This document shows positions 9,950 through 63,614 of a stretch of 64,000 nt of DNA, piece by piece. The stretch is from contig NDWX01000001.1 of NCBI GenBank assembly GCA_002855745.1, positions 124,001-188,000 on the forward strand, given 5' to 3'. This stretch comes from Thermofilum sp. NZ13. GTDB taxonomy: Archaea > Thermoproteota > Thermoprotei > Thermofilales > Thermofilaceae. Under the pieces are notes generated by a model. The model had not been told where the DNA came from and did not search any database. It worked only from the letters and a program-made list of their open reading frames with translations. How positions within the stretch are numbered: the first letter of the stretch is position 1; each line of letters begins with the position of its first letter. The position numbers were made by a program, and so were the translations under genes.

Positions 9950-10474
9950 TTAAGGGAGCCAGTGGGGGCAGAAAAGGAGGAGCACGTACTCCGCTTTCAC
10001 GAGGTCGGGGTGGTTCTCCACCAGCCACCCCGCGCCCATCCTCCCGCCCATCTCCTCGTCGGCTGTCGCCGCGTAGATGAGGCGCCCCTTGAACCTCTTG
10101 GACTCGACGAAGTCCAGGAAGACGCGGAGCATCACGGCGACGCTCAGCTTGTCGTCGAGCGCCCCGCGCCCCCAGATGAATCCGTCCTTCACCAGCCCCG
10201 AGAAAGGGTCGACACTCCACTCCTCGGGGTTGGCGGGTACGACGTCGAGGTGGGAGAGGAGGAGCAGGGATGGGCCCGGCTCATTGGACTCGGCCCACGC
10301 TACAATGCTACCCCTGTTGGGCGCGCTCTCGAGCAGCTTGTACTCGACGCCCGCTCCGCTCAGGGCCTCGGCAATGAGCTTCGCGGCAGGCGTCTCGTTG
10401 CCGGGAGGGTTAGAGGTGTCCACGCGTATGAGCTCCGAGAGCATGTCGGCGACAAATGCTACTTTGGGATCCAC
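9950..10474 (-). pseudogene. M20 family metallopeptidase/deacylase, C-terminal two thirds missing
   Basis: N-terminal part of an M20 enzyme (ArgE/DapE/acetyl-lysine deacetylase group). Metal-site motifs are present: LLLSHLDVVP with the His and Asp, GRGALDDK with the bridging Asp, and TADEEMGG with the catalytic Glu pair. The protein ends at about 174 residues after VKAEYVL, against roughly 400 in the family, so the rest of the catalytic domain and the dimerisation domain are gone. The likely start is the GTG at 10474 (DPKVAFVADMLSEL follows); the open frame upstream of it is not family-like. The break coincides with the GC-rich hairpin block at 9836-9935, which suggests an insertion followed by deletion. 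Confidence 0.75.
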
Positions 10475-14089: not shown

Positions 14090-14450
14090 GCTAAGCTGGG
14101 TGATTACCTGAGGCTGATCGACTAGGCTCCCTGAGGAGCGCGGGGACCTGCTCGACGCGCTAAGCGAGTTACAAGAATCTTTCCCCGACAAGCCGGCGGA
14201 GTGGCTCTACCGCGCCGTGTACAGGCTTCTAGCCGGGAAAGTGGAGGGGGTGGGAGCGAGCACTGGCTCGTCAAGGGGCTGGCGGAGCTGGGGGACACCT
14301 ACCCCCGGTACAACGTCTGGGTACACGAGGGCAAGTACCGCTGCGACTACATCTCCAGGATACGGCTACGTCCGCAAGGCGAGGATGTGCAACCCCACAG
14401 CTACGGTGATGCTGTACCGGAGACAGCTCCGGCTCCGCGCCGGATGAGCT
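14090..14450 (+). pseudogene. Degenerate SWIM-zinc-finger-like gene (copy 2)
   Basis: Three frames must be joined. The first reads DLLDALSELQESFPDKPAEW and LYRAVYRLLAGKVEG. After a shift near 14,245 it reads EHWLVKGLAELGDTYPRYNVW and VHEGKYRCDY. After another shift near 14,355 it reads GYVRKARMCNPTATVMLYRR. Joined, the pattern YRCDx...MCNxxAxVMLYRR resembles a SWIM zinc finger (CxCx(n)CxH) in which the second Cys has become Tyr and the His has become Pro. A TAG at about 14,127 interrupts the N-terminal part. The middle segment is closely similar to copy 1 at 9,508-9,798. Clearly a dead gene; the parent function would be nucleic-acid or protein binding. Confidence 0.6.
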
Positions 14451-49048: not shown

Positions 49049-50311
49049 ATGGAGCGATCGAGAACAATTTTAGTCATGTGCGGAGCCCTTCTCATAGCAG
49101 TTGTTGCAGTAGCAACTTTATATCTCTACCCTTACCATCCACATAGACCTCCGTTGGCGAACGAGTCCAACTACACCGAGAGCAGCCTCCAGGCGGTCGT
49201 CGCTTCAAGCAACCTCTTGGCCGCGAACCTCTACAGGGACGTTGCCCTCAAAGAGAGTGGCAACGTGTTCATCTCACCGTTCAGCGTGTACTCCGCGCTG
49301 GCGATCCTCTACGAGGGGGCCAGGGGCAGCACGGCTGAGGAGTTCAGGAGCGCGCTAGGCTACCCCAGCGTCGAGGTTTTGAGGCCCAACTACGCCCACC
49401 TCTACAACTCCCTGAACAGCGTCAGTGGCGTGGAGCTCGCGACCGGGAACGCGCTCTGGGTCCAGAGGGGGTTCGACGTTCTACCCGAGTACAGCAGGGT
49501 GGTTGAGGAGTTCTACGGAGCCAAGGCGGCGAGCCTCGACTTCGCGGGGGACCCCGAGGGCTCCAGGGTTACGATAAACAGGTTCATTGAGGAGCAGACC
49601 CGGGGGAGGATCAAGGACCTGATACCACCGAACTTCATAGACAGCTGGGTCAGGCTTGTCATAACGAACGCGGTGTACTTCAAGGGCTCGTGGCTCTACG
49701 CCTTCGACAAGGGTAAGACCTCCCAGGCCAGCTTCAGGGTCTCTGCGGACAGGACCGTCAGCGTGCAGATGATGTGCATGGAGCCCTCCGGGAAGGAGTT
49801 CATGTACGCCGACCTCGAGGACGCGCAGGTGCTTGAGCTACCCTACGCGGGCGGGAGGCTGAGCATGGTCATCATCCTGCCGAAGGGCGACCTCCGCGAG
49901 CTCGAGAAGGGCCTAACGCGCGAGAGGCTTGAGAGCTACCTTTCCTCGCTCAGGCCGGAGAAGCTGGACAGGATTTGCCTGCCCCGCTTCGAGCTCGAAA
50001 GGAAGTACCTCCTCAACGAGAACCTGCAGAGCCTCGGCTTGAGGAAGGTCTTCCAGGGCGATGAAGCGGACCTCTCGGGCATCGACGGGAGGAGGGACCT
50101 GTACGTCGCCTGGGTTATCCACCAGACGTATGTCAGGGTGGACGAGGAGGGAACCGAGGCCGCCGGCGCGACGGCGGTCGGCGTAAAACTCACGGCTTAC
50201 ATGCCGTCGAAGACCTTCGTAGCGGACCATCCGTTCATCTTCCTCATAAGGGACAGGGAGACGGGGCTCGTGCTCTTCATCGGCAGAGTAGTCGACCCCA
50301 CTTCGAAGTGA
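49049..50311 (+). CDS. Serpin (serine protease inhibitor), membrane-anchored
   Basis: A 420-residue serpin with an N-terminal membrane segment (ILVMCGALLIAVVAVATLYL), so it sits on the outside of the cell. Family motifs are clear: NVFISPFSVYSALAILYEGA, NAVYFKGSWLYAFD, and the C-terminal FVADHPFIFLIRD. The reactive-centre loop spans residues ~366-390: the hinge EEGTEAAGATAVGV is rich in small residues, as in inhibitory serpins, and cleavage should fall near LTAYM. It probably protects against foreign or own secreted proteases. Serpins are rare in archaea, occurring mainly in Thermoproteota. Confidence 0.93.
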   Translation: MERSRTILVMCGALLIAVVAVATLYLYPYHPHRPPLANESNYTESSLQAVVASSNLLAANLYRDVALKESGNVFISPFSVYSALAILYEGARGSTAEEFRSALGYPSVEVLRPNYAHLYNSLNSVSGVELATGNALWVQRGFDVLPEYSRVVEEFYGAKAASLDFAGDPEGSRVTINRFIEEQTRGRIKDLIPPNFIDSWVRLVITNAVYFKGSWLYAFDKGKTSQASFRVSADRTVSVQMMCMEPSGKEFMYADLEDAQVLELPYAGGRLSMVIILPKGDLRELEKGLTRERLESYLSSLRPEKLDRICLPRFELERKYLLNENLQSLGLRKVFQGDEADLSGIDGRRDLYVAWVIHQTYVRVDEEGTEAAGATAVGVKLTAYMPSKTFVADHPFIFLIRDRETGLVLFIGRVVDPTSK

Positions 50312-50409
50312 GCCTTCAATCCCGGGGCACAGAGGAGGCGCGCCGATTACTCCGGTTTATCACAGCACAGTGTTTTTATTCTCCCCTGTCCTTTAGGCTC
50401 GGTGGTCTG

Positions 50410-51912
50410 GTGACAGGGAAGGCATTTTACGTGACGACGCCCATATACTACCCGAACGACGTGCCCCACATCGGGCACGCCTACACGACGGTCCTGGCGG
50501 ACGTGCTGGCCAGGTGGTACAGGCTGAACGGCTACGACGTGTTCTTCCTGACGGGCACCGACGAGCACGGCTTGAAGCTCCAGAGGGCCGCCGAGAAGGC
50601 TGGGAAGACGCCGAAGGAGTTCGTGGACAGCATGGTCCCGGTGTTCAAGAAGTACTGGAGCCTCCTCGAGATAGAGTACAGCAGGTTCATCAGGACCACC
50701 GACCCTGACCACGAGGAGCTCGTGAAGAAGGTCTTCCAGAGGCTGTACGAGAAGGGCTACGTGTACAAGGGCTCGTACAGCGGCTGGTACTGCGTCAGCT
50801 GCGAGAAGTTCTACAGCGAAGGCGAGTACGTGGAGCAGGGGGGGCAGAAGCTCTGCCCCATCCACAGCAAGCCCCTGGAGTGGGTGGAGGAGGAGACGTA
50901 CTTCCTCAGGCTCTCGGCCGTGCAGGACGAGGTGCTGAAGACCATCGAGAGCGGCGGAACGGTCTTCCCCGAGGCTTACGCGAGGGAGGTCGTCGGGAGG
51001 ATCAGAAAGGAGGGGTTGAGGGACGTCTCCGTCGCCAGGCCGAAGACAAGGGTTTACTGGGGCGTCGAGCTCCCATTCGACAGGGACTTCGTGGCCTACG
51101 TGTGGATAGACGCTCTGCTCAACTACCTCACCGGGATAGGCTTCATGAGGGATGATGACAGCTTCCAGAAGTACTGGCCCGAGGCCCACCACATCATCGG
51201 GAAGGACATCCTCTGGTTCCACAGCGCCATATGGTTCTCCGTGCTCAGAATGCTCGGCCTCGACCCGCCGAAGAGGCTCATCGTACACGCCTACATCGTC
51301 AACAGGGGGCTGAAGATGGGCAAGAGCACTGGGAACGTGGTGATGATCGACGACCTCCTCGAGAGGTACAAGTCGGCCGACGCGGTCAGGTACCTCCTGA
51401 TGAGGCTCCTCAACCTGGAGAAGGACGTGGAGTTCGACCAGAGCCTCCTCGACAGCATCTACAACGGGGAGCTGGCCGACACCTTCGGCAACCTCGTCCG
51501 CAGGGCGGGCGTCCTCGCCCTCCGGAAGCTCGGAGGCAGAGTCCCCCGCGCCGACCCCGACCCCGGCCTGGCGGAGCTGGCCAGCAACACAGTCAAGAAA
51601 GTCGCGGAGCTCATAGCAGAGGTCAAAGTTTCGGAGGCCCTCACAGCAACCTTCGACCTCCTCAGGGAGGCTAACAGCTACATGAACAGGACGGAGCCCT
51701 GGGCGCTCGACGACCCCACGCGGCCCCTATACAACACCCTGGAGGCGCTCAGGGTCGCGACAAACCTCCTCTACCCCGTCATGCCCGCGACGGGCGAGCA
51801 GGTGTCCAGGGCCTTCGGCTTCCAGCTAATCCCTCCCGCCGAGCTGGCGTTCGGCCAAGTCGAGGAATACAGAGTCACGGAAGCCCCTATACTCTTCCAA
51901 AAGGTCAAATAG
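50410..51912 (+). CDS. metG: Methionyl-tRNA synthetase
   Basis: A 500-residue class I synthetase that charges tRNA-Met. The HIGH motif is PHIGHAYTT near residue 20, KMSKS appears as KMGKST near residue 303, and the zinc knuckle is WYCVSCEKFY with CPIH. The C-terminal anticodon-binding helical domain is present and there is no EMAP/dimerisation domain, so this is the short form usual in bacteria and some archaea. The GTG at 50,410 is preferred; the frame is open back to 50,308 but that part is unrelated. The 3' end overlaps the convergent gene by 8 bases. Confidence 0.95.
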   Translation: MTGKAFYVTTPIYYPNDVPHIGHAYTTVLADVLARWYRLNGYDVFFLTGTDEHGLKLQRAAEKAGKTPKEFVDSMVPVFKKYWSLLEIEYSRFIRTTDPDHEELVKKVFQRLYEKGYVYKGSYSGWYCVSCEKFYSEGEYVEQGGQKLCPIHSKPLEWVEEETYFLRLSAVQDEVLKTIESGGTVFPEAYAREVVGRIRKEGLRDVSVARPKTRVYWGVELPFDRDFVAYVWIDALLNYLTGIGFMRDDDSFQKYWPEAHHIIGKDILWFHSAIWFSVLRMLGLDPPKRLIVHAYIVNRGLKMGKSTGNVVMIDDLLERYKSADAVRYLLMRLLNLEKDVEFDQSLLDSIYNGELADTFGNLVRRAGVLALRKLGGRVPRADPDPGLAELASNTVKKVAELIAEVKVSEALTATFDLLREANSYMNRTEPWALDDPTRPLYNTLEALRVATNLLYPVMPATGEQVSRAFGFQLIPPAELAFGQVEEYRVTEAPILFQKVK

Positions 51913-54035: not shown

Positions 54036-54300
54036 TGACCTCCTCACTCTACGCCTTCCCTCCTGAGCTCCCTGAAGTCCACGTTCCTCAGCCCCTCGAT
54101 GGGGGTTCTGGGCGCCACCACGAGGACGCGGTCTCCGCCCTTGAACAACTAGGGTATGCGGGCTGAGCTCCAAGGGTCTACTCCAACAAAGGGGTCGTCG
54201 AGGCACAGGAGCTCCAAGTGAGGGGGCGAGCACGGCTACGGACTGAGCCATCCCCTGCATGCCCATGGGTAGCTTCCCTAGCCTCGCAACGTGAAGCTAC
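54036..54300 (-). pseudogene. Remnant of an ABC transporter ATPase
   Basis: On the minus strand two frames join to read VARLGKLPMGMQGMAQSVAVLAPSL then ELLCLDDPFVGVDPW. The first is a blurred signature region and the second is Walker B. After a stop, RVLVVAPRTPIEGLRNVDF resembles the tail of such ATPases. Walker A and the first half are missing. It has at least one frameshift and several stops, so it is dead. It may have had a membrane partner that has also been lost. Confidence 0.5.
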
Positions 54301-55118
54301 GCGCCGCCAGTCCCGGAAATCACCCTGACGCCTAGCTTCTGCGCAGCCTGCTGCGCCTTTGGGTCGGCGAAGGGCGTGACGATCACCAGTTTTGGCTTGA
54401 CGCCCGTCTTCTTCTCGTAGAGCCGGGCGATGCGCCAGAGCTCGTACACGTCTCCCCGCGAGACGCTGGACTTCACCTCGACGAGGATGTGCTCCTCGTC
54501 TCTGACCACGACGTCTGCCTCGACTGGTGAGGGGTGCCCGTACACGAAGCCCTCCTCGTCGTAGGAGACCCACTTCTCAACCCTCTCGCCGAAGCTCCGC
54601 AGGATGTCGGCCATGGCCCGGCGGAAAGCCTCCTCGCTCATCAGCCCCCACCTGGCCCCGAGCGCCGAGATCGTCCTCTGGAGCTCGCGCATGGCTACGG
54701 TGTGCTCCGCAATCACCTTGCTGTGCTCCGCGACCTGTTCCTGGAGCGCCTTTATAGCCTTAGAGTGCTCGGCAACCTGCTCCTGGAGGGCTTTGATTGC
54801 TTTTGTGTTCTCGGATACCTGCTCCTGTAACGCCTTTATGGCTTTCGAGTGCTCCGCGACCTGCTCTTGGAGCGCTTTAATTGCTTTCGAGTGCTCAGCG
54901 ACTTGCTCTTGTAGTGCCTTGATCGCTTTGGTGTTGTCGGCAACCTGCTCCTGCAAGGCTTTAATCTCCCGTTGAAGGTCCCGGATGGCGCGCGTGTTCT
55001 CGTCTAGCCTCTCCAGCACCTCGCGCATACCCAGGAGGCCGGCTACGCTGTAACGGAACTCCTTGTCCTCCTCAAGCAACCTGAGGATCTCCGCTTTCAG
55101 CGCCTCTCTGCTCAGCAT
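54297..55118 (-). CDS. Coiled-coil protein with C-terminal PD-(D/E)XK nuclease-like domain (DUF3782-like), copy 2
   Basis: A 273-residue protein with the same layout as the 10,739 protein. The N-terminal module is LKAEILRLLEEDKEFRYSVAGLLG. The coiled coil consists of near-identical 14-residue units (EQVAEHSKAIKALQ) repeated about seven times between residues 50 and 145. The C-terminal domain has VEADVVVRDEEHILVEVKSS, a proper D-x(n)-E-V-K nuclease motif. The ATG at 55,118 lies about 30 bases from GTTTATAAGC, so it is chosen over the longer frame. The repeats are DNA-level repeats and may vary in number. Function unknown; defence-like or DNA-repair roles are possible. Confidence 0.78.
   Translation of the reverse strand: MLSREALKAEILRLLEEDKEFRYSVAGLLGMREVLERLDENTRAIRDLQREIKALQEQVADNTKAIKALQEQVAEHSKAIKALQEQVAEHSKAIKALQEQVSENTKAIKALQEQVAEHSKAIKALQEQVAEHSKVIAEHTVAMRELQRTISALGARWGLMSEEAFRRAMADILRSFGERVEKWVSYDEEGFVYGHPSPVEADVVVRDEEHILVEVKSSVSRGDVYELWRIARLYEKKTGVKPKLVIVTPFADPKAQQAAQKLGVRVISGTGGA
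54700..54960 (-). repeat. Tandem 42-base repeats encoding 14-residue coiled-coil units
   Basis: About seven imperfect copies of a 42-base unit (EQVAEHSKAIKALQ or EQVADNTKAIKALQ) form the central coiled coil of the protein at 54,297-55,118. Copies two and three are identical at protein level, which points to recent slippage or unequal recombination. Confidence 0.75.
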
Positions 55119-55532
55119 TCCCCTGTTGAAAAGCGGAGCGGCTCGCTTATAAACATGCTCGCTACTACATGCAAGCACGCCGCGCTCTCTGAGACACCGG
55201 GTGCACTTACGGGCCGAGCTGGAGGCCGGGGCTGTCGAGGAGAGACAGCTTAAACCCCCGGGTATGGGCTCGCCTGTGGGCTAGCTTGGCTGGGCAGGGA
55301 GGTTCCCCACTACAGGTGTGAATTCTCCAGGATATTCTTGAAGCGTGAGTGCCTAGGAGGGGAGTCGGGGGTGCCATGTAGGTGCGAGTTCTTGCAGGCA
55401 GCTTCAGGAAAAACCTGCCGTGTTCCCTCTCTAGCGCTGTAGTTTAAAAAGCTAGGATTTACGGGTCTTATGTTAGTAGCGTTAGGCTTCTTCGGTCCGC
55501 CGAAGGCTGAGAGAGAATGGCAGGTTAGTGGG
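55119..55532. other. 414-base gap before the MFS gene
   Basis: It contains the promoter of the coiled-coil gene (GTTTATAAGC near 55,145-55,153). The rest shows no supportable gene. A short frame starting ATGTTAGTAGCG at 55,469 overlaps the MFS 3' end and is not convincing. Confidence 0.35.
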
Positions 55533-56810
55533 CTACTCTCTGTGGGTAGAGGGCTCCTCGACGAGTAGAGCTACCACAGCAGTGTTGGCGGCGCCGAGGA
55601 TTGCCGCAAGCAGGAAGGGGTACGCAGGCCCCTCGCTGTAGAGAAGACCCGCCAGGGCCGAGGCGGGTATGGAGGCAAGCAACCTGAGAGCTCCGACCGC
55701 TCCCATCACTCTGCCGCGGGCTTCCCTGGGTGCCAGGTCTGCCAGCATTGCCTGGTAGGCTGGGTTGAAGAGCGAGGCCCCCAGCGAGAAGGCTGTGAAG
55801 GCGAGCGCCATCTCGAGCGTGCTGCGGCACTGGACGAAGTAGATGGTGGCTGGGACCCAGAGCGCGTAGGCCAGCAGCATAGACCTACGCCTACCTATGG
55901 AGTCCACGAGGAGGCCGAGCGGTATCCCGGCTACGAGCGGGACCGCGAAGAATATCGAGCTCAGCAGAGCCCACTCAGTCTCGCCGATGCCGGCGACGCC
56001 GACCACATAGAGGGGCATGAACCGGAACATCGACTCCTCGAAGGAGTTCACCACGAGGGCTACCGCGAGGGGCAGGAGAGGTGCCTGGACGCCCTTCGGC
56101 GTCGCGATAGCCCCTTTCACCGAGGACACGAGGCGAGCGGAGAGGCTAGGGGGCTCGGGTGCGCGTACCAGGGTTTCCTCAAGCCAGAGCGCCCTCACGA
56201 GCCCGGCTGAGAGGGCTAGGAGCGCTCCCAGCGCGTAGACCAGCCTCACCCCTTGAACGAGCCCGCTCCTCTCAACCAGCAGGGCCGCCGAGATGGGTGC
56301 GAACACGGATAAAGCCGCGGGAAGCGTGTCGACCAGCGCGTATGCCAGCCCCCTTCTCCCTGATGCAGCCGAGTCGGCTGTGAGCGCCTGGAGAGCTGGA
56401 AGCGAGAGCGAGGAGAACGCCCCCACAAGCGCGACGCCCACCGCGGCGAGCCACCAGCACGGGGCAGCTGCGATGACGGAGTACGAAAGCGCTACGCCGA
56501 AGGTCGCTAGCACGGCGACCTCCTTCCTCCCGCGGCTGTCTGCGGCGTACGCTCCAAGCAGCCTCGAAACCAGTACGAGCGATGACGCGAGCGAGCCAAG
56601 GAGCCCTATAGCCAGCGCCGGCGCCCCGAGGGCCTGCAGGTAGAGCAGCTCGTACGGGTACGCCATGGACTCGGCGAAGTAGGTTAGCGAGGCAGTAGCG
56701 CCGAGTACGATGACGTTGCCCTTCAGCCCGGAGAGGTGGCCGGTTCGACGATCTCTGCTGGTGGGCATAGCGTTACACCACATGGGAATCAGAGCACGAG
56801 TAACCATCAT
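55533..56810 (-). CDS. MFS transporter
   Basis: A 425-residue carrier with about 12 helices; loop 2-3 is LLGAYAADSRGRKEVAVLATFG and its repeat in the second half is GLLVDSIGRRRSMLLAYALW. The frame is open to 56,810, but the first 20 residues (up to PTSRDRRTGH) may be untranslated; an ATG at 56,768 starts PTSRDRRTG. Substrate unknown. Confidence 0.88.
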   Translation of the reverse strand: MMVTRALIPMWCNAMPTSRDRRTGHLSGLKGNVIVLGATASLTYFAESMAYPYELLYLQALGAPALAIGLLGSLASSLVLVSRLLGAYAADSRGRKEVAVLATFGVALSYSVIAAAPCWWLAAVGVALVGAFSSLSLPALQALTADSAASGRRGLAYALVDTLPAALSVFAPISAALLVERSGLVQGVRLVYALGALLALSAGLVRALWLEETLVRAPEPPSLSARLVSSVKGAIATPKGVQAPLLPLAVALVVNSFEESMFRFMPLYVVGVAGIGETEWALLSSIFFAVPLVAGIPLGLLVDSIGRRRSMLLAYALWVPATIYFVQCRSTLEMALAFTAFSLGASLFNPAYQAMLADLAPREARGRVMGAVGALRLLASIPASALAGLLYSEGPAYPFLLAAILGAANTAVVALLVEEPSTHRE

Positions 56811-57053
56811 TTATGCTTCAACGTGGGCTGTGGCTGTAGAAAAAAGTCATTCGAGGCTGCTTATAATGGTTCCGTGCGGGCACGGGAGCTACCCACTACT
56901 TACGCTGTTAGGAAACTGCAACCCCAGTTGCGTCTGCTTGCCGGATTTTTCGGTATATTAGGAGTTTTCTGATTAAATTAACAGCTTTCTCGGGGTTACG
57001 TTTTAGTATGACGCAGGTATAAGTTAATAAGCTTTAACAGAGTTTAAAGAGCG

Positions 57054-57431
57054 GTGGAGCAGATAACTGTTCTTTTCGGTGGAGCGGCTGGAGACGGCGT
57101 GAGGAGCCTCGGGGTAACCTACGCACGGGTGTTGTCGAGGTGGGGCTGGCACTCCTTCGTCTACGACGACTACCAGAGCCTGATCAGGGGTGGGCACAAC
57201 TTCTCAATAGTCACGTCCAGGAGAGGTGAGCGCGTGTTCGCCCACTGGGACACCGTCGACGGCATCGTAGCACTCAACCAAGACACAGTCGACAGACACC
57301 TCGGAAGGCTACGCGACAGCGGGTTCATGGTCTACGACTCCGACGCGGTCAAGAATCCGCCAGGCAAGGGGCTCGCGGGCGACTACTCGCAAACTCGCCT
57401 CAGGGAAATCATTGAGGAGAGGTGGCTGTAG
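57054..57431 (+). pseudogene. 2-oxoacid:acceptor oxidoreductase gamma domain, truncated
   Basis: A 125-residue protein with the N-terminal gamma domain of oxoacid:ferredoxin oxidoreductases (PorG/KorA-N/IorB): ITVLFGGAAGDGVRSLG, VYDDYQSLIRGGHNFSIVTS, ALNQDTVDRHLGRL. The domain is usually about 180 residues and, in the fused KorA type, is followed by about 400 more. Here it ends at 57,431 with RLREIIEERWL and no alpha or beta subunit follows. Probably the remains of a deleted operon, though a free-standing short gamma-like protein cannot be excluded. A TATA-like element lies near 57,030. Confidence 0.65.
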
Positions 57432-57515
57432 CTTAAGCCGAGCCTCCGGGCACCGAGCTCGGCGTAGACTGAGATAAGTTTATATGACGGCTGGATAAAC
57501 TCGATGTGATAAACA

Positions 57516-57893
57516 ATGTCAAAGCCTTTTGGAGATCTAATATATACGCCCGAGAGGGCGGCTGGAGAGGCTGTCAGCAAGGTTGAAACGCACACCCCCA
57601 AGATAACCGCGCCGGACAAGGTTAAGGCCAGTGAGGAGTTCCAGGTCACGATCACCGTTGGCCCCCATCCGAACACCGTCCAGCACTCAATCAGGAAGAT
57701 AAAGGTCTACTTCGCGGAGGAGGGGAGGCCCTTCAACCCGATCCACCTAGCCACCGTAGAGCTCGAGCCCGAGTACGCTGAACCCAAGGTGACCCTAACC
57801 GTCAAGCTGAAGAAGAGCGGAACCATATACGCTGTAGAGTACTGCAACCTGCACGGCCTGTGGGAGGCGAGGAAAGAGATAACAGTTGAGTAA
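57516..57893 (+). CDS. Superoxide reductase (neelaredoxin)
   Basis: A 125-residue class II superoxide reductase that reduces superoxide to peroxide in anaerobes. Fe ligands are in place: ETHTPKI (Glu, His), GPHPNTVQHSI (two His) and EYCNLHGLW (Cys, His). The N-terminal desulforedoxin domain is absent, as in neelaredoxins. The first 20 residues (MSKPFGDLIYTPERAAGEAV) are typical. The TATA box TTTATATG at about 57,479-57,486 lies upstream. Confidence 0.95.
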   Translation: MSKPFGDLIYTPERAAGEAVSKVETHTPKITAPDKVKASEEFQVTITVGPHPNTVQHSIRKIKVYFAEEGRPFNPIHLATVELEPEYAEPKVTLTVKLKKSGTIYAVEYCNLHGLWEARKEITVE

Positions 57894-58493
57894 CAAGGAA
57901 GCACCCTAGTTAAATTGCTTCTTTAGGCTTCCTCCTTTCATCCAGGCCCCCTTAGTCATCCGCCCTTCACAGCCTCGCTCCGAGGCCCGCTCCAAGGGAC
58001 TTCCGTAAGCTTTGCCTCCAGGGCACCTCATCTATGGTTGCTCTACGCGGCGAGGTTGCATCACACCACCTTATAGCTCCTCCGCGGTTCACAGTACAGG
58101 CTTTGACAGTACAACCTCCCTTTAACCTTTCCTCAATCTGTGGGGAAAAGAAGGGTTGGCTTGGATGCGGGTATGCCAGGGGGCTGTTCAAAGCAACGTT
58201 GGTGGGACAGGCTAAGTTCAGGCAAGACAGGCTTACATTCAGCTCCTCTGTACGCCCATGGTGTGGGATGAAGATGAATTCTGGGACCTCTGTGCAGGCG
58301 TCTATGGCCAGCAAGCTTAATTGCGCCGCTCACGCGGGCACGGGGACCAGAGACTCTCCCGAAACGCTACTTGACCTGCTTTTACCTTCAAAAAATAATA
58401 TTAACCCTCGGTCAGTCAAAAGGAGAGGTACCCCCTTCTCAGCGTCTTGAATAGGCTTAGGGGAGGACTCTGTGGGACGTGGGGTGGTAGGCC
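57894..58493. other. 600-base gap with no clear gene
   Basis: Several overlapping open frames on both strands (the longest 57,967-58,314 minus, 115 codons) look unlike any family I recognise and have no promoter or Shine-Dalgarno support. Base composition is closer to 50 % G+C than the rest. It may be the remains of an inserted element. Confidence 0.3.
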
Positions 58494-59650
58494 TTGAGAT
58501 TGAGGAACATCACACTCATCGCCGTTGCCCGCTCCTCCCAGATGTTCGTGCTAGGCTTCCTCACGTGGTACCTTCCCATCGCGATAGAGGGGAGCTCGGC
58601 CTTCCCGCGCTGGGTCTGACGTACTCTGCCTCCTGCGCTCTATCGGGGTTCGCAGGGCTGGTGGGGGGAGCGCTGAGCGACAGCCTGGGTAGAAGACCCG
58701 TGATCGTAGCCGGCTCAGCGGCAATGCTCCTCGGTGCCCTGCTGGTGGCGTTAGCGCCGCTTTGCGGCGCGGGAGCGCTCGCGCTGTCCGCGTTGCTGCT
58801 CTTCGGCCTCCAGCACCTCGGTGACGCGGCCATGGACTCGGCGCTCTACGAGTCCACGGGGGAGGATTCTCTGGGCAGAGCTCTCGCCGCGGTGTTCGTG
58901 GCAGGCGCCCTCTCTGGATCAGCGGGCTCTGCAGTACTTGGCTTCACCACTGAGCGCGACGCGGCGCTCGCAGGAGCGCTTGTGCTGGCGGTAGCGCTCA
59001 CCTGTTTCGTGTCGAGCGCTCTCCTAGAGGAGACTGCGCGGGGGAGAGGTGCTTTGAGCGTGCGGGGGAGCGTGGAGCGTGCTGCCGAGTGGTTCAAGTC
59101 GATGGGCAGTGTACCTCTCGCGGTTCTCTCCCTGACCGTCCTGATGGCGGTGGAGGTCGACTCTACCCTAAACCTTTACCCCGTGTTTATGAAGGAAGTG
59201 CAGGGCTTCGCGGAGAGGGAGGTGGGCTTGGTTTACGGGGCGATCCCGGTGATACAGGCCCTTATTTACCCCCTCGCCGGCGCCGCCGTGGACAAGCTGG
59301 GGACTCCGAGGGCTGCGTGCGCGGCACTCCTGATTCAGTCAGCCGGGGTAGCTGGCTTCGCAACACTAGGGCGTCCCTACGCGGCTCTGGCGCTTCTAGC
59401 GGCTTCTGCTGCTGGGGCTGTGTTCAACCTCGCGTACAGGGCTATGGTGGTTTCAAGTGCCTCTGCTAGTGCTAGGGGCACCACTGTGGCGCTCGTGTAC
59501 GTAGTGTGGGACCTCGCGGCGGTGCCCGCGCCTGCCCTGGGAGCCATGCTGTATACCCTTGACCCCAGGCTCCCGTTCTTCCTGGCCTCCTTTACCCTTG
59601 GATTGGCGGCCATCATCGCACAGAGCGCTGATCGCAGGCATGTCAATTGA
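58494..59650 (+). pseudogene. MFS transporter with a one-base frameshift near the N-terminus
   Basis: The C-terminal 340 residues are an MFS carrier in one frame (GALSDSLGRRPVIVAGSAAML loop 2-3, about 11 helices). The first helix lies in another frame from the TTG at 58,494: RNITLIAVARSSQMFVLGF then LTWYLPIAIEG. The two join as AIEG/ELGLPALGLTYS if one G is added to the GGGG run at 58,589-58,592. Without the shift the N-terminus from 58,472 is nonsense. This is a second one-base homopolymer defect in the window, so a sequencing error is possible. Confidence 0.78.
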
Positions 59651-59891
59651 AGCTACTTGCTGATGTACATGCTACCCATTAAGTATGAGCCTGTAGGCAC
59701 ACCCGATGAAGAATTTCAGAATTTCGCGCCTAAAACTGCGTACCAGCCTCCATTAGTATCGCAAGAATGGGAACCTTCGCTGCGGCGCCCCCTTGGACCT
59801 GAGATTATGTTTTTAAGATGCTGAGCGGCTTCCTTGAAAGCTTTAATGGCATGCAAAAAAGTTTAATAATACTAATGAAAGTTTAGTATTT
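59651..59891. other. Intergenic stretch with promoter of the wHTH-like gene
   Basis: No gene visible. The A+T-rich end includes TTTAATAATACT near 59,859-59,870, a TATA-like element about 25-30 bases before the GTG at 59,892. Confidence 0.4.
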
Positions 59892-60395
59892 GTGAAGTGT
59901 GACCAAGCTTTTGCTGAAGCATTGTCAATCCTTCTCAGAAGAGGGTTTATCACCTACAAGTCCCTCAGAGACTCTTACGGGCCCTGCGCCCTGTACGTTT
60001 TCAGAAGCCTGCTGATGTCAGGCCTCGCGGTGAAGCCCTCGCGGGGACTCCTCGTGTCAGCCGACACCAGGGGCCTCCAGGTCTCAGACCTAAAGGCGGC
60101 CATAGAGCTCTGCAACGGGAGAGGCGACTGCGTCTACGAGCTCCTAAAGACTGCCGCCCGCGAGGCGGACAGGGTGATCAGGACACTGGTTAAGGCGGGC
60201 GCGCTGAGGGTTGAGGGCGTGAGCGGGGATTACCTGGCGCTGTGGCTCGAGTACGGCTGGCCGTCGGAGGTCCCCGCTGAGAGAGTTAGGGGCGAGTGGC
60301 AGAGGCACTTCGCGTTCGCGGGACCCAAGGCAGTAATGATGCGCCCTCCTTGGACTGTGGAGGGGGCGGTGGTAAGAGTTGTTAACCGCGAATAG
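59892..60395 (+). CDS. Winged-helix-like protein of unknown function
   Basis: A 167-residue protein with two segments that look like winged-helix units: EALSILLRRGFITYKSLRDSYG at residues ~8-30 and AREADRVIRTLVKAGALRV at ~98-116. The C-terminal 50 residues are Trp-rich (ALWLEYGWPSEVP). I recognise no family. The last 17 bases overlap the TTG start of the ATPase gene, so the two may be co-expressed. G+C content is high, unlike the ATPase. Confidence 0.55.
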   Translation: MKCDQAFAEALSILLRRGFITYKSLRDSYGPCALYVFRSLLMSGLAVKPSRGLLVSADTRGLQVSDLKAAIELCNGRGDCVYELLKTAAREADRVIRTLVKAGALRVEGVSGDYLALWLEYGWPSEVPAERVRGEWQRHFAFAGPKAVMMRPPWTVEGAVVRVVNRE

Positions 60396-62250
60396 CCCTG
60401 CAAGTCAATGTACCCTGGAGAAATTCAAAGTCTTGCTTAGTGACACAATTTCTAGTGAAAACAGATACAAGATAAGAGATGCTTTTCGTTCCTGTGGCTT
60501 CGTTGAAACAACGAGTTACAGGTTTGTAATGGAACGTATTAAGGAATTCGAAAGCGGCTTTCGTGGAACACCGGTAATAATGATTTACGGTGAAGCAGGA
60601 ATCGGTAAATCTTTGTTGTGCAGAGCCGTCGAATACACACTTTGGGAAGAAGCTATCAGTAAAGTCAGGAAGAGTCTAAGTGCAACCTCAACCTGCATTG
60701 AAAGAGCAATTTTGCCTGTATATGTGAATCTAGAAAGTATACCGGGTGAGGCATTAGCTCCAGTCACGAGAGATCGAGACTTAGAGAGTCTATCCGATAC
60801 TATTTCAGATATTATTTCCAAAGGTATAAAAAATGAAACCATGAATATTCTCTCAGAGATTTTAGGTAATGCAGGCATCATCATGTATAGTGAACTCTGG
60901 GAGGAGCTAGTACCAATTGTAAAAAATGTGCTAGAGACTTTGAAAAAACGCCACGATTTTACTCTTCCTGCATTTTTCTCTCTACTTAGGCTAGCAGAGT
61001 TCAGGTATTTCATTATCCTAGACGGGGTGACTACATTGATTGGTAATCCTGAAACTAAGGAAGGTTTCACAATTATCAGAGACGCCGTTTTTAAGAAGGT
61101 GCTACGCAAATGGCGTGAAGCGCTTAACAACTTACTCGCAGGCTTCATGATCACAGCTCATGTACTCAATGTGGACTCCTTTAACGCATTTCTAGGCTCC
61201 ATCGAAAACGAGCTCGTAACATCTATTGGAGAAGCTGAAAGATTCAGGTTCGAGTACATTACTGGAGGAGAATTCTTCCCTTCTTCAGACGAAGCGGTAA
61301 TACGCTGGCTCAAGAATGCGGGAATTGATAACGAGTGGGTTGCCGGGATCTACAGAGATATCGTAGCAAACAGCAAGTTCAGGTATGGGTCATATTTCCT
61401 CAAAGAGTATATTGAACTTCGTGAAAACCCTTCCGGTTATAGTAGTGGTAGCTTTACCTCTGCTATTCATGGAGATTTGTCAAAAAACCTTGAGAGGTTG
61501 ATCACGGAGCATCTCGCGAAAGAGTTAAAAAACAAACAACTCACAAAAATTGTGAAAGCAGGGCATAAAGTAGGGGACATGGTGTGCGATCTCCTGGTTG
61601 GAAATATGTGTGTAGACGTGAAAGTTACCGGAAATGTTCCCCAGCTCGAAAAAGCTATAGAGGATGACCTAGACAGGCTAAGCAAGGCCAAAGAAATTAA
61701 GCTAGCATATTTAGTGGTTACCGACAAAAAAGTCATTCAGAGCTCAATAAAGGGTGTCCCGCTAATCTCTATACACATTCCAGAACTCGATGTAATTTAT
61801 CGTTCATTGCAAAACACAGAAGAGAGAGTCGCGAAGATGATGAAAACTCTCCAAATAAGAAAGCAAATAACTTTCAAACCGTATTTATTCAACCGTATCG
61901 CCGTAGTCGCCTCGCAGAAGTTAGTTGACTTCATGCTTAAACCCCCCGCAGACCTCCTCCATTCATTTCAGCAGGCAGAAAGTCTTTTAGCGCCCTCTTA
62001 CGATGTAACGCTTCTAGAAATTGTTAGAAGAGACTGTAAGGAGCTCAACGGCAAATCTAGAACCGAATGGATTAAGAGGGCTGAATCTGTGTCGAAAGTC
62101 TATGGAGGAAAGGTTAAAAGGGAAAAAGTCGAGAAGCTACGAGAAATTATAAATAAAATAAACGAAAGAATATCCGGTAGTGGGTTACAACTAGTGGAGA
62201 AAGAAGAGGGAGGGAAAGGGTATATCATTTGCGTGGAAGAAAGAAACTAG
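60379..62250 (+). CDS. P-loop ATPase with C-terminal PD-(D/E)XK nuclease-like motif, A+T-rich, probably acquired
   Basis: A 623-residue protein. The Walker A is MIYGEAGIGKSLL (residues 71-78 GEAGIGKS) and a Walker B-like strand YFIILDGVTTL has Asp215. Residues 395-415 read GHKVGDMVCDLLVGNMCV and DVKVTG. The spacing Asp404-x8-Asp413-x-Lys415 fits the D-x(n)-(D/E)-x-K core of restriction-type nucleases. The remaining 200 residues are helical and coil-like. The TTG at 60,379 is the longest start; a TTG at 60,421 with GGAG before it, or the ATG at 60,530, are alternatives. Composition is about 40 % G+C against more than 60 % around it. Transcription follows the wHTH-like gene. No family is assigned; defence is an inference. 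Confidence 0.6.
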   Translation: MLTANSPASQCTLEKFKVLLSDTISSENRYKIRDAFRSCGFVETTSYRFVMERIKEFESGFRGTPVIMIYGEAGIGKSLLCRAVEYTLWEEAISKVRKSLSATSTCIERAILPVYVNLESIPGEALAPVTRDRDLESLSDTISDIISKGIKNETMNILSEILGNAGIIMYSELWEELVPIVKNVLETLKKRHDFTLPAFFSLLRLAEFRYFIILDGVTTLIGNPETKEGFTIIRDAVFKKVLRKWREALNNLLAGFMITAHVLNVDSFNAFLGSIENELVTSIGEAERFRFEYITGGEFFPSSDEAVIRWLKNAGIDNEWVAGIYRDIVANSKFRYGSYFLKEYIELRENPSGYSSGSFTSAIHGDLSKNLERLITEHLAKELKNKQLTKIVKAGHKVGDMVCDLLVGNMCVDVKVTGNVPQLEKAIEDDLDRLSKAKEIKLAYLVVTDKKVIQSSIKGVPLISIHIPELDVIYRSLQNTEERVAKMMKTLQIRKQITFKPYLFNRIAVVASQKLVDFMLKPPADLLHSFQQAESLLAPSYDVTLLEIVRRDCKELNGKSRTEWIKRAESVSKVYGGKVKREKVEKLREIINKINERISGSGLQLVEKEEGGKGYIICVEERN

Positions 62251-62363: not shown

Positions 62364-63266
62364 CTATCTGGGAAGCACCCTAAGCGTGGCGGTCAGGGCT
62401 TTATTGTTCAGCGTGACGGTGACTGAGTACACACCTGGGGGTAGCTTCAGGAGGTATGCTCCCTCGAAGTACGGTCCCCTGGCCCTCAGCTCCAGCGGGA
62501 ACTCCTCGACCACTCCGCCGCCCTCAACTCTGAGCTTCGCCTGCATACCACCTTCTGCCCCTCCCGGGACGTAGACCCAGACTAGGAGCTTGAAGCTCGC
62601 CAGCTCGTCCTCGCCCGCCCTTGAGGCGAGCCCGTCGACCTGCACGGCGTAGCTCCTGGTTGAGCCGTTGAAGGGGATCCACTCGGGCGCTTCGGGTGGC
62701 TCGGGGAGCACCTCCAGCTCTGCGGTCTTCCCCAGAGAGTACCTCAGCGTGATCCTGACCTTGAGGTCCCCGCTCGACTGCCATGAGACCCTCAGCCTCG
62801 CGCTGTACACTCCCTTCTCGATGAGCATTGGGGCGTCGAACCCAGGGATGAGCATCATAACCCTGAAGCACTCCATCCCACTCGCGGCGACGCAGGGCAT
62901 GTCTACCTTGTAGCTTCGGACGGAGCCCTCGAGCTCGAGTGTTGCGCTCAGGATGAAGCGGGCGTTCCCGGACAGCAGCTGAACCTCTGGTTTGAAGACA
63001 ACGTTCGAGCTCTCCGAGAAGTTGATGCTACTGAGGCTCAGCACCTCCTCCCCTCTCCCGGCCGTCAGTGTGAGCTCCGCAGACTGGTAGGCGTTTCCCG
63101 GGGAGTAGCTCCCATGAGTGGGGTTCGATGCCCATGGGGAGGCTAGGCTCCCCTGAGAAGCGTGACCCCCAGCTAGGGGTTCTGGGAAAAAGGCGAGGAG
63201 GATGAACAGCGAGGCGAGAGCTGCAAAAACAGGTGCCAGCACCAATACTAGAGTTCTTGCTCTCAT
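62364..63266 (-). CDS. Secreted or membrane-anchored protein with Ig-like beta domains
   Basis: A 300-residue protein with one N-terminal helix (LVLVLAPVFAALASLFILL) and a beta-rich extracellular part. It ends in YLLKLPPGVYSVTVTLNNKA, a common end of Ig-like or carboxypeptidase-regulatory-type domains, and shows short repeats of the type GVYSARLRVSW. No family recognised. The promoter-like GTTTAATG lies about 28 bases upstream on the minus strand. Confidence 0.6.
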   Translation of the reverse strand: MRARTLVLVLAPVFAALASLFILLAFFPEPLAGGHASQGSLASPWASNPTHGSYSPGNAYQSAELTLTAGRGEEVLSLSSINFSESSNVVFKPEVQLLSGNARFILSATLELEGSVRSYKVDMPCVAASGMECFRVMMLIPGFDAPMLIEKGVYSARLRVSWQSSGDLKVRITLRYSLGKTAELEVLPEPPEAPEWIPFNGSTRSYAVQVDGLASRAGEDELASFKLLVWVYVPGGAEGGMQAKLRVEGGGVVEEFPLELRARGPYFEGAYLLKLPPGVYSVTVTLNNKALTATLRVLPR

Positions 63267-63614
63267 CGAGCTAGCAGGCTAAGTTGGTTTCATTAAACTT
63301 AGCGTAGCTTTGATACGTATCCTCGCGACAGCCACCGCTCGCAGGTGCAAGTTAGAGGGAGGTACGCGTAAACCTCTGAGAAAGCCACCGGATAGGGGGT
63401 GGGCTCGACGGGAGTTTACTCAGCTAGCGCTCAAACCGAGGTTTGCTTCAGCCTCCTCGTGAACCAACAGTAGCCTGCAGGTAGCGCAAGCGTAGGACTC
63501 TAGTGTCCTCGACAACGCTAACAGCCTTACTCGAATGCTGGCTAGTAAATTCTCAGACCGATTCATGTATTAAGAGTACTTTATGTTTAAAAGTATCTTT
63601 GTACGGTTGCTTTT
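63267..63614. other. 348-base divergent intergenic region
   Basis: Between two divergent secreted-protein genes. It contains the two promoters (GTTTAATG near 63,291 on the minus strand and TTTAAAAG near 63,586 on the plus strand). No RNA gene or ORF is supportable in between. Confidence 0.4.

Follow-up and report, generated by a model that had tools for sequence, protein, structure and literature searches.

A native wHTH-like gene followed by an apparently replaced ATPase gene in Thermofilum sp. NZ13: a candidate two-gene defence module

Within the window analysed here, a stretch of 64,000 nucleotides from the genome of Thermofilum sp. NZ13 (1.88 Mb, 33 contigs), a gene of native composition for a wHTH-like protein is followed by an ATPase gene that appears to have been exchanged for a foreign allele precisely behind its start codon (Table 1). 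We propose that the two genes form an antiviral or anti-mobile-element module, in which a lineage-specific ATPase-nuclease effector acts with a wHTH partner, and we put the probability of this reading at roughly 0.5. Several features suggest such a module, including a defence-type gene pair that occupies the corresponding slot in a sister genome, the sharpness of the swap, a patchy distribution, conserved motifs, and a gene overlap that has been kept. Weighing against it are the lack of a nuclease profile, PDB relative or predicted fold, the lack of a match of the pair to a known defence family, the existence of just two intact copies, and a missing Walker B acid.

Table 1. Features of the locus, in window coordinates.
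Feature	Position	Strand	Remark
AT-rich archaeal-type promoter region, TTTAATA / GTTTAGTA boxes	59855..59891	+	putative; read from the sequence and a two-genome alignment
wHTH-like partner gene, 167 aa	59892..60395	+	GTG start; native composition (61% G+C)
ATPase gene, 623 aa: P-loop NTPase, PD-(D/E)XK-like motif, C-terminal wing-like domain	60379..62250	+	TTG start; A+T-rich, apparently replaced allele
Exchanged segment	60382..62388		2,007 bp in the window; the sister genome has 3,876 bp
Walker A GEAGIGKS, residues 71-78	60589..60612	+	all residues except I75 kept in the 41%-identical homologue
Walker B-like strand YFIILDG, residues 210-216	61006..61026	+	YFIILDE in the sister allele
Putative PD-(D/E)XK core, residues 368-415: acidic helix (E372, E377), D404, D413-V-K415	61480..61623	+	invariant in the two alleles
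C-terminal region, last 85 residues	61993..62247	+	most highly conserved part of all three copies
Conserved downstream flank gene, 300 aa	62364..63266	-	last codons inside the exchanged segment

The ATPase gene stands out from its surroundings in composition. Its G+C content, estimated by eye in a preliminary description of this DNA at about 40%, was computed as 41.4% (GC3 41.7%), the lowest among the 53 ORFs of the window, which average 61.4 ± 4.1% (GC3 77.8 ± 9.5%). The wHTH-like gene, at 61.1% G+C and a GC3 of 74.4%, is compositionally normal. Comparison with the corresponding locus in a second genome from this species (G192) gave the borders of the anomaly. The flanks are 93.3% identical over 55499-60381 and 92.6% identical over 62389-63400, and identity per 50-base window runs at 84-94% up to 60381 and then falls to 48%. 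The earlier placing of the shift in composition in the last codons of the upstream gene proves exact, as the drop at 60381/60382 coincides with the end of the ATPase gene's TTG start codon, whose last base is 60381. Identity resumes at 62389, among the final codons of the converging 300-aa gene, and between the two borders blastn aligned just one piece of 113 bases, at 71% identity. At the protein level the two ATPase alleles are about 41% identical over their full length. Because the sister allele is host-like (59.1% G+C, GC3 79%) and the wHTH-like proteins of the two genomes are 90% identical, the pattern is most simply read as a foreign allele having supplanted the ATPase gene in the window genome, while the wHTH-like gene, which belongs to the conserved flank of host composition, stayed in place. 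The preliminary description had regarded the pair as acquired; that view holds for the ATPase gene, foreign in composition and swapped, and joint acquisition of both genes was rejected, since the wHTH-like gene has host composition and its high identity in the sister genome. The exchanged segment of the sister genome has GGTCAGGG at either border (L007, about 10348-10356 and 14233-14242), whereas the first border in the window reads GGTAAGAG; the repeat is a possible microhomology and may be due to chance.

Exchange of the ATPase gene has left the arrangement of the pair unchanged. The two genes share 17 overlapping bases, which had already prompted the suggestion that they act as one unit, and since the overlapping TTG start is kept in both genomes, we consider the unit to be real. 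Both proteins are also intact ORFs in the second genome, more than would be expected by chance, and the putative promoter region 5' of the GTG start is similar in the two genomes when aligned. This single promoter region would drive both genes as one transcript, and their translation would be coupled through the overlap.

The argument for defence that we find strongest comes from the context of the locus in the sister genome, although it has been seen in that one genome. There, the exchanged segment contains the ATPase allele and two genes on the opposite strand, convergent with it. One encodes a 436-aa ATPase that matches Pfam AAA_21 (E = 3.1e-29) and, in PADLOC, HEC-01A (4.4e-33), AriA (3.4e-28) and AbiLi (1.4e-25); the other encodes a 185-aa protein that matches the PADLOC mad4 model (E = 1.5e-8). 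By these profiles, an AriA/HEC-01A-type ATPase and a mad4-like protein make up a defence-type pair in the same slot, hinting that the slot holds antiviral cassettes. As the flanks are conserved while the content differs between two genomes of one species, the locus is, on this two-genome comparison, a slot for cassettes that follows a conserved partner gene. Alleles have been exchanged within the species at a site that carries defence-type genes, as judged from these two genomes. The genes examined upstream in the window serve transport and metabolism and include no defence island.

In the 623-aa protein itself, the Walker A sequence was found where the preliminary description had placed it; it conforms to the pattern GxxxxGK[ST] and is conserved in the 41%-identical homologue. 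The nearest Pfam matches are the generic P-loop domains AAA_16 and AAA_22, AAA_16 being the best for the window protein (E = 1.1e-4, 23.2 bits) and reaching 6.4e-6 and 27.2 bits for the sister homologue, with neither allele attaining the curated cut-off of 32.6 bits. Residues of about 55-350 resemble an ORC/STAND-like P-loop NTPase. Set against the Walker B pattern hhhhD[DE], the sister allele has the acidic residue behind the aspartate (LDEL), and the window allele has a glycine behind D215 (LDGV).

The restriction-type nuclease motif described earlier, D404-x8-D413-V-K415, was confirmed residue for residue. D404, D413, K415 and the residues of the acidic helix are invariant between the two 41%-identical full alleles; a truncated third copy, in the genome G005, starts downstream of the D..DxK motif. 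None of about 165 further ORFs examined contained a strict version of the motif (D-hh-x(3-9)-h-[DE]-h-K-h), which arose in 2.9% of shuffles of the 623-aa protein. From the conserved motif residues alone, it is plausible that residues of about 365-480 form a putative PD-(D/E)XK nuclease domain, but no such domain was found in this protein by profile, PDB or profile-profile searches. A PDB match to BrxL over residues 368-413 (E = 0.24) was not significant and was set aside. Single-sequence AlphaFold runs, for which there was no usable alignment, gave pLDDT values of 40 and 35, too low to show either the alpha-beta-beta-beta-alpha-beta core of this superfamily or the non-nuclease fold at residues 380-480 that the preliminary description had named as a ground for giving up its reading. 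The C-terminal region was modelled, weakly and with a pLDDT of about 50 at best, as three helices and a beta hairpin, and may be winged-helix-like. For the 167-aa partner, searches of Pfam, PADLOC and the PDB returned no family match, and it was read as a wHTH protein by eye.

NTPase modules joined to nuclease-type parts are not without parallel in prokaryotic defence. Avs and other STAND-NTPase effectors couple an NTPase switch to a nuclease-type effector, a make-up that the 623-aa protein shares if its putative nuclease part is accepted; unlike in Avs, however, the NTPase comes first and the nuclease after, there is no recognised repeat sensor domain, and no nSTAND model matched above the cut-off. 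BrxC/DUF499 ATPases of BREX systems likewise combine an ORC/Cdc6-STAND ATPase with wHTH modules (PMC12839542), and the likeness lies in a STAND/ORC-type ATPase joined with winged-helix parts, whereas no methyltransferase, PglZ or other BREX gene was recognised nearby and no BREX profile matched. The closest parallels in make-up are PDC-S01 and PDC-S27, single-gene putative defence candidates, abundant in archaea and without experimental proof, in which an ATPase is fused to PD-(D/E)XK (PMC12988326). Here, too, a P-loop ATPase is followed by a probable PD-(D/E)XK part in one archaeal protein that is a candidate for defence, and because this fusion is the make-up of PDC-S01 and PDC-S27, the kind is already known. 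The window pair differs from them in that a wHTH gene accompanies the ATPase gene and the C-terminal part is longer. Their PADLOC models gave no match to the pair at E ≤ 1, and the PDC-S01 model PDLC04792 had zero matches in the window's genome. Kinship with the PDC-S01-like and ATPase_2-like proteins of the genus was rejected, as profile-profile comparison aligned the P-loop only and left the nuclease part without alignment. The best reading of these sequence comparisons is that the 623-aa proteins are an orphan, lineage-specific family of the PDC-S01/S27 kind, and not members of either. The AriA/HEC-01A/mads_3-type ATPase and its mad4-like partner share the slot and are hence slot-mates; that ATPase is of the AAA_21/AAA_15, RecF/SMC-like type, to which the 623-aa protein is homologous at the P-loop only. 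PADLOC-DB 2.0 as a whole gave the 623-aa protein only P-loop matches, to LmuB (residues 61-95, E = 2.7e-4) and AbiLi (residues 51-87, E = 0.04), so that the defence function suggested earlier finds no profile of a known system in the pair and draws its support from the slot-mates in the sister genome.

Relatives of the pair are few. Intact copies are known from two genomes, those of the window and G192, and broken pieces of both genes occur in a third species (G005). The ATPase remnant there is C-terminal, has about 200 residues and shares 52% identity with the G192 allele and 36% with that of the window; the wHTH remnant comprises 29 residues. Some 3.4 kb separate the two remnants, whose order is scrambled; cas3-type genes are found within a few kb of them, and a PIN-like ORF is near. 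Directly upstream of the ATPase remnant, at L008:10364-11767 (-), is a gene for a 467-aa AAA_14-like ATPase with a weak PDC-S01 match and a nuclease-type motif, DLDVV...YEVKV. No relative of the ATPase was found in the other 78 of the 81 genomes of the class, nor was any relative found among 398 genomes sampled from the phylum. In plasmids and phages, tblastn found no relative, and pattern scans of genome contigs and viral contigs, a method that reaches close relatives only, returned only P-loop-level matches. Matches in genus g29 were short and P-loop-centred, lay in 826-899-aa ORFs of Rad50/SMC-like ATPases, and were not counted as relatives.

Could the pair have a role other than defence? 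A small DNA-binding-like first gene, a two-gene unit and a translational overlap would also fit a toxin-antitoxin-like or selfish addiction module, in which a toxic ATPase-nuclease is repressed or neutralised by the wHTH protein and the swap reflects competition between selfish alleles; the decayed pieces in the third species, beside a PIN-like ORF and a cas3 locus, point the same way. A specific antitoxin would be expected to travel with its toxin, however, and here the partner is 90% identical while the effector is 41% identical; the effector is also far bigger than usual toxins, and we regard this explanation as unlikely. Nor do we favour a DNA-repair, recombination or chromosome-handling ATPase, ORC/Cdc6- or ATPase_2-like and with no immune role, in which D-x8-DVK would be fortuitous or non-catalytic. 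The generic nearest profiles, the missing nuclease profile and the frequency with which shuffling creates the strict motif all agree with it, but allele replacement, patchiness and decay are atypical of housekeeping genes, and the motif residues have been conserved across alleles that have otherwise diverged to 41% identity. The preliminary description had named homologues that are housekeeping genes in conserved synteny as grounds for abandoning the defence reading. Synteny is indeed kept in the two genomes of the species, but the gene itself has been swapped within it and therefore does not behave as a housekeeping gene. We regard this second explanation as about as unlikely as the first.

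We give still less credence to the idea that the ATPase gene is cargo of an inserted mobile element, such as a plasmid or virus remnant, without a stable host function. Its foreign composition, and the variability of a region in which the two genomes differ by further insertions, would be expected of cargo. Yet the window contains no tRNA and the site is flanked by no recognised integrase or transposase, collections of phages, plasmids and viral contigs yielded no relative, and what took place was an exchange of homologue for homologue, in register with a conserved partner, and not insertion into an empty site.

If the pair is an antiviral or anti-mobile-element module, the wHTH protein would be the partner that stays fixed and is adapted to the host, most likely serving as a DNA-binding sensor or autoregulator, and the 623-aa protein its exchangeable effector, an ORC/STAND-type NTPase that would respond to a trigger. 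The triggered NTPase may then license the PD-(D/E)XK-type nuclease domain and the C-terminal, winged-helix-like DNA-binding part, and the activated effector could cut invading DNA or, in abortive infection, the host's own. Recombination in the flanks would swap the effector and so renew its gene; as the slot begins at the effector's start codon, such recombination would leave promoter, wHTH gene and translational overlap untouched. Effector specificity or type would thereby be renewed while control stays. It is conceivable, though at present doubtful, that this amounts to a new archaeal immune system, with a fixed wHTH sensor or regulator anchoring a slot for interchangeable ATPase-nuclease effectors. 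Thermoproteota reportedly have, in general, a lower prevalence of recognised defence systems, save for restriction-modification, CRISPR-Cas and argonautes (PMC12988326), and unrecognised lineage-specific families are therefore to be expected among them. The locus offers a small, concrete candidate with a comparison built in, namely two 41%-identical alleles behind one conserved partner gene, and the slot shows where more candidates of the genus might be sought.

The region around the locus is variable as a whole, since the sister genome carries further insertions on both sides. One (L007:2027-5473) contains an alpha/beta-hydrolase-like membrane protein and another (L007:15244-18000) a 523-aa protein and a CPBP-like membrane protein, all as judged by eye. 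Two proteins that combine a DUF3782 coiled coil with PDDEXK_10 are encoded at 54297-55178 (-) of the window and at L009:7479-8180 (-); the coiled coil of the former is a tandem repeat of KAIKALQEQVAEHS units, and within these repeats the alignment with the sister genome is interrupted. Elsewhere in the window, a complete serpin gene lies at 49049-50311 (+) (Pfam Serpin, E = 2.3e-110), directly 5' of a methionyl-tRNA-synthetase-type gene at 50308-51912, which it overlaps by 4 bases.
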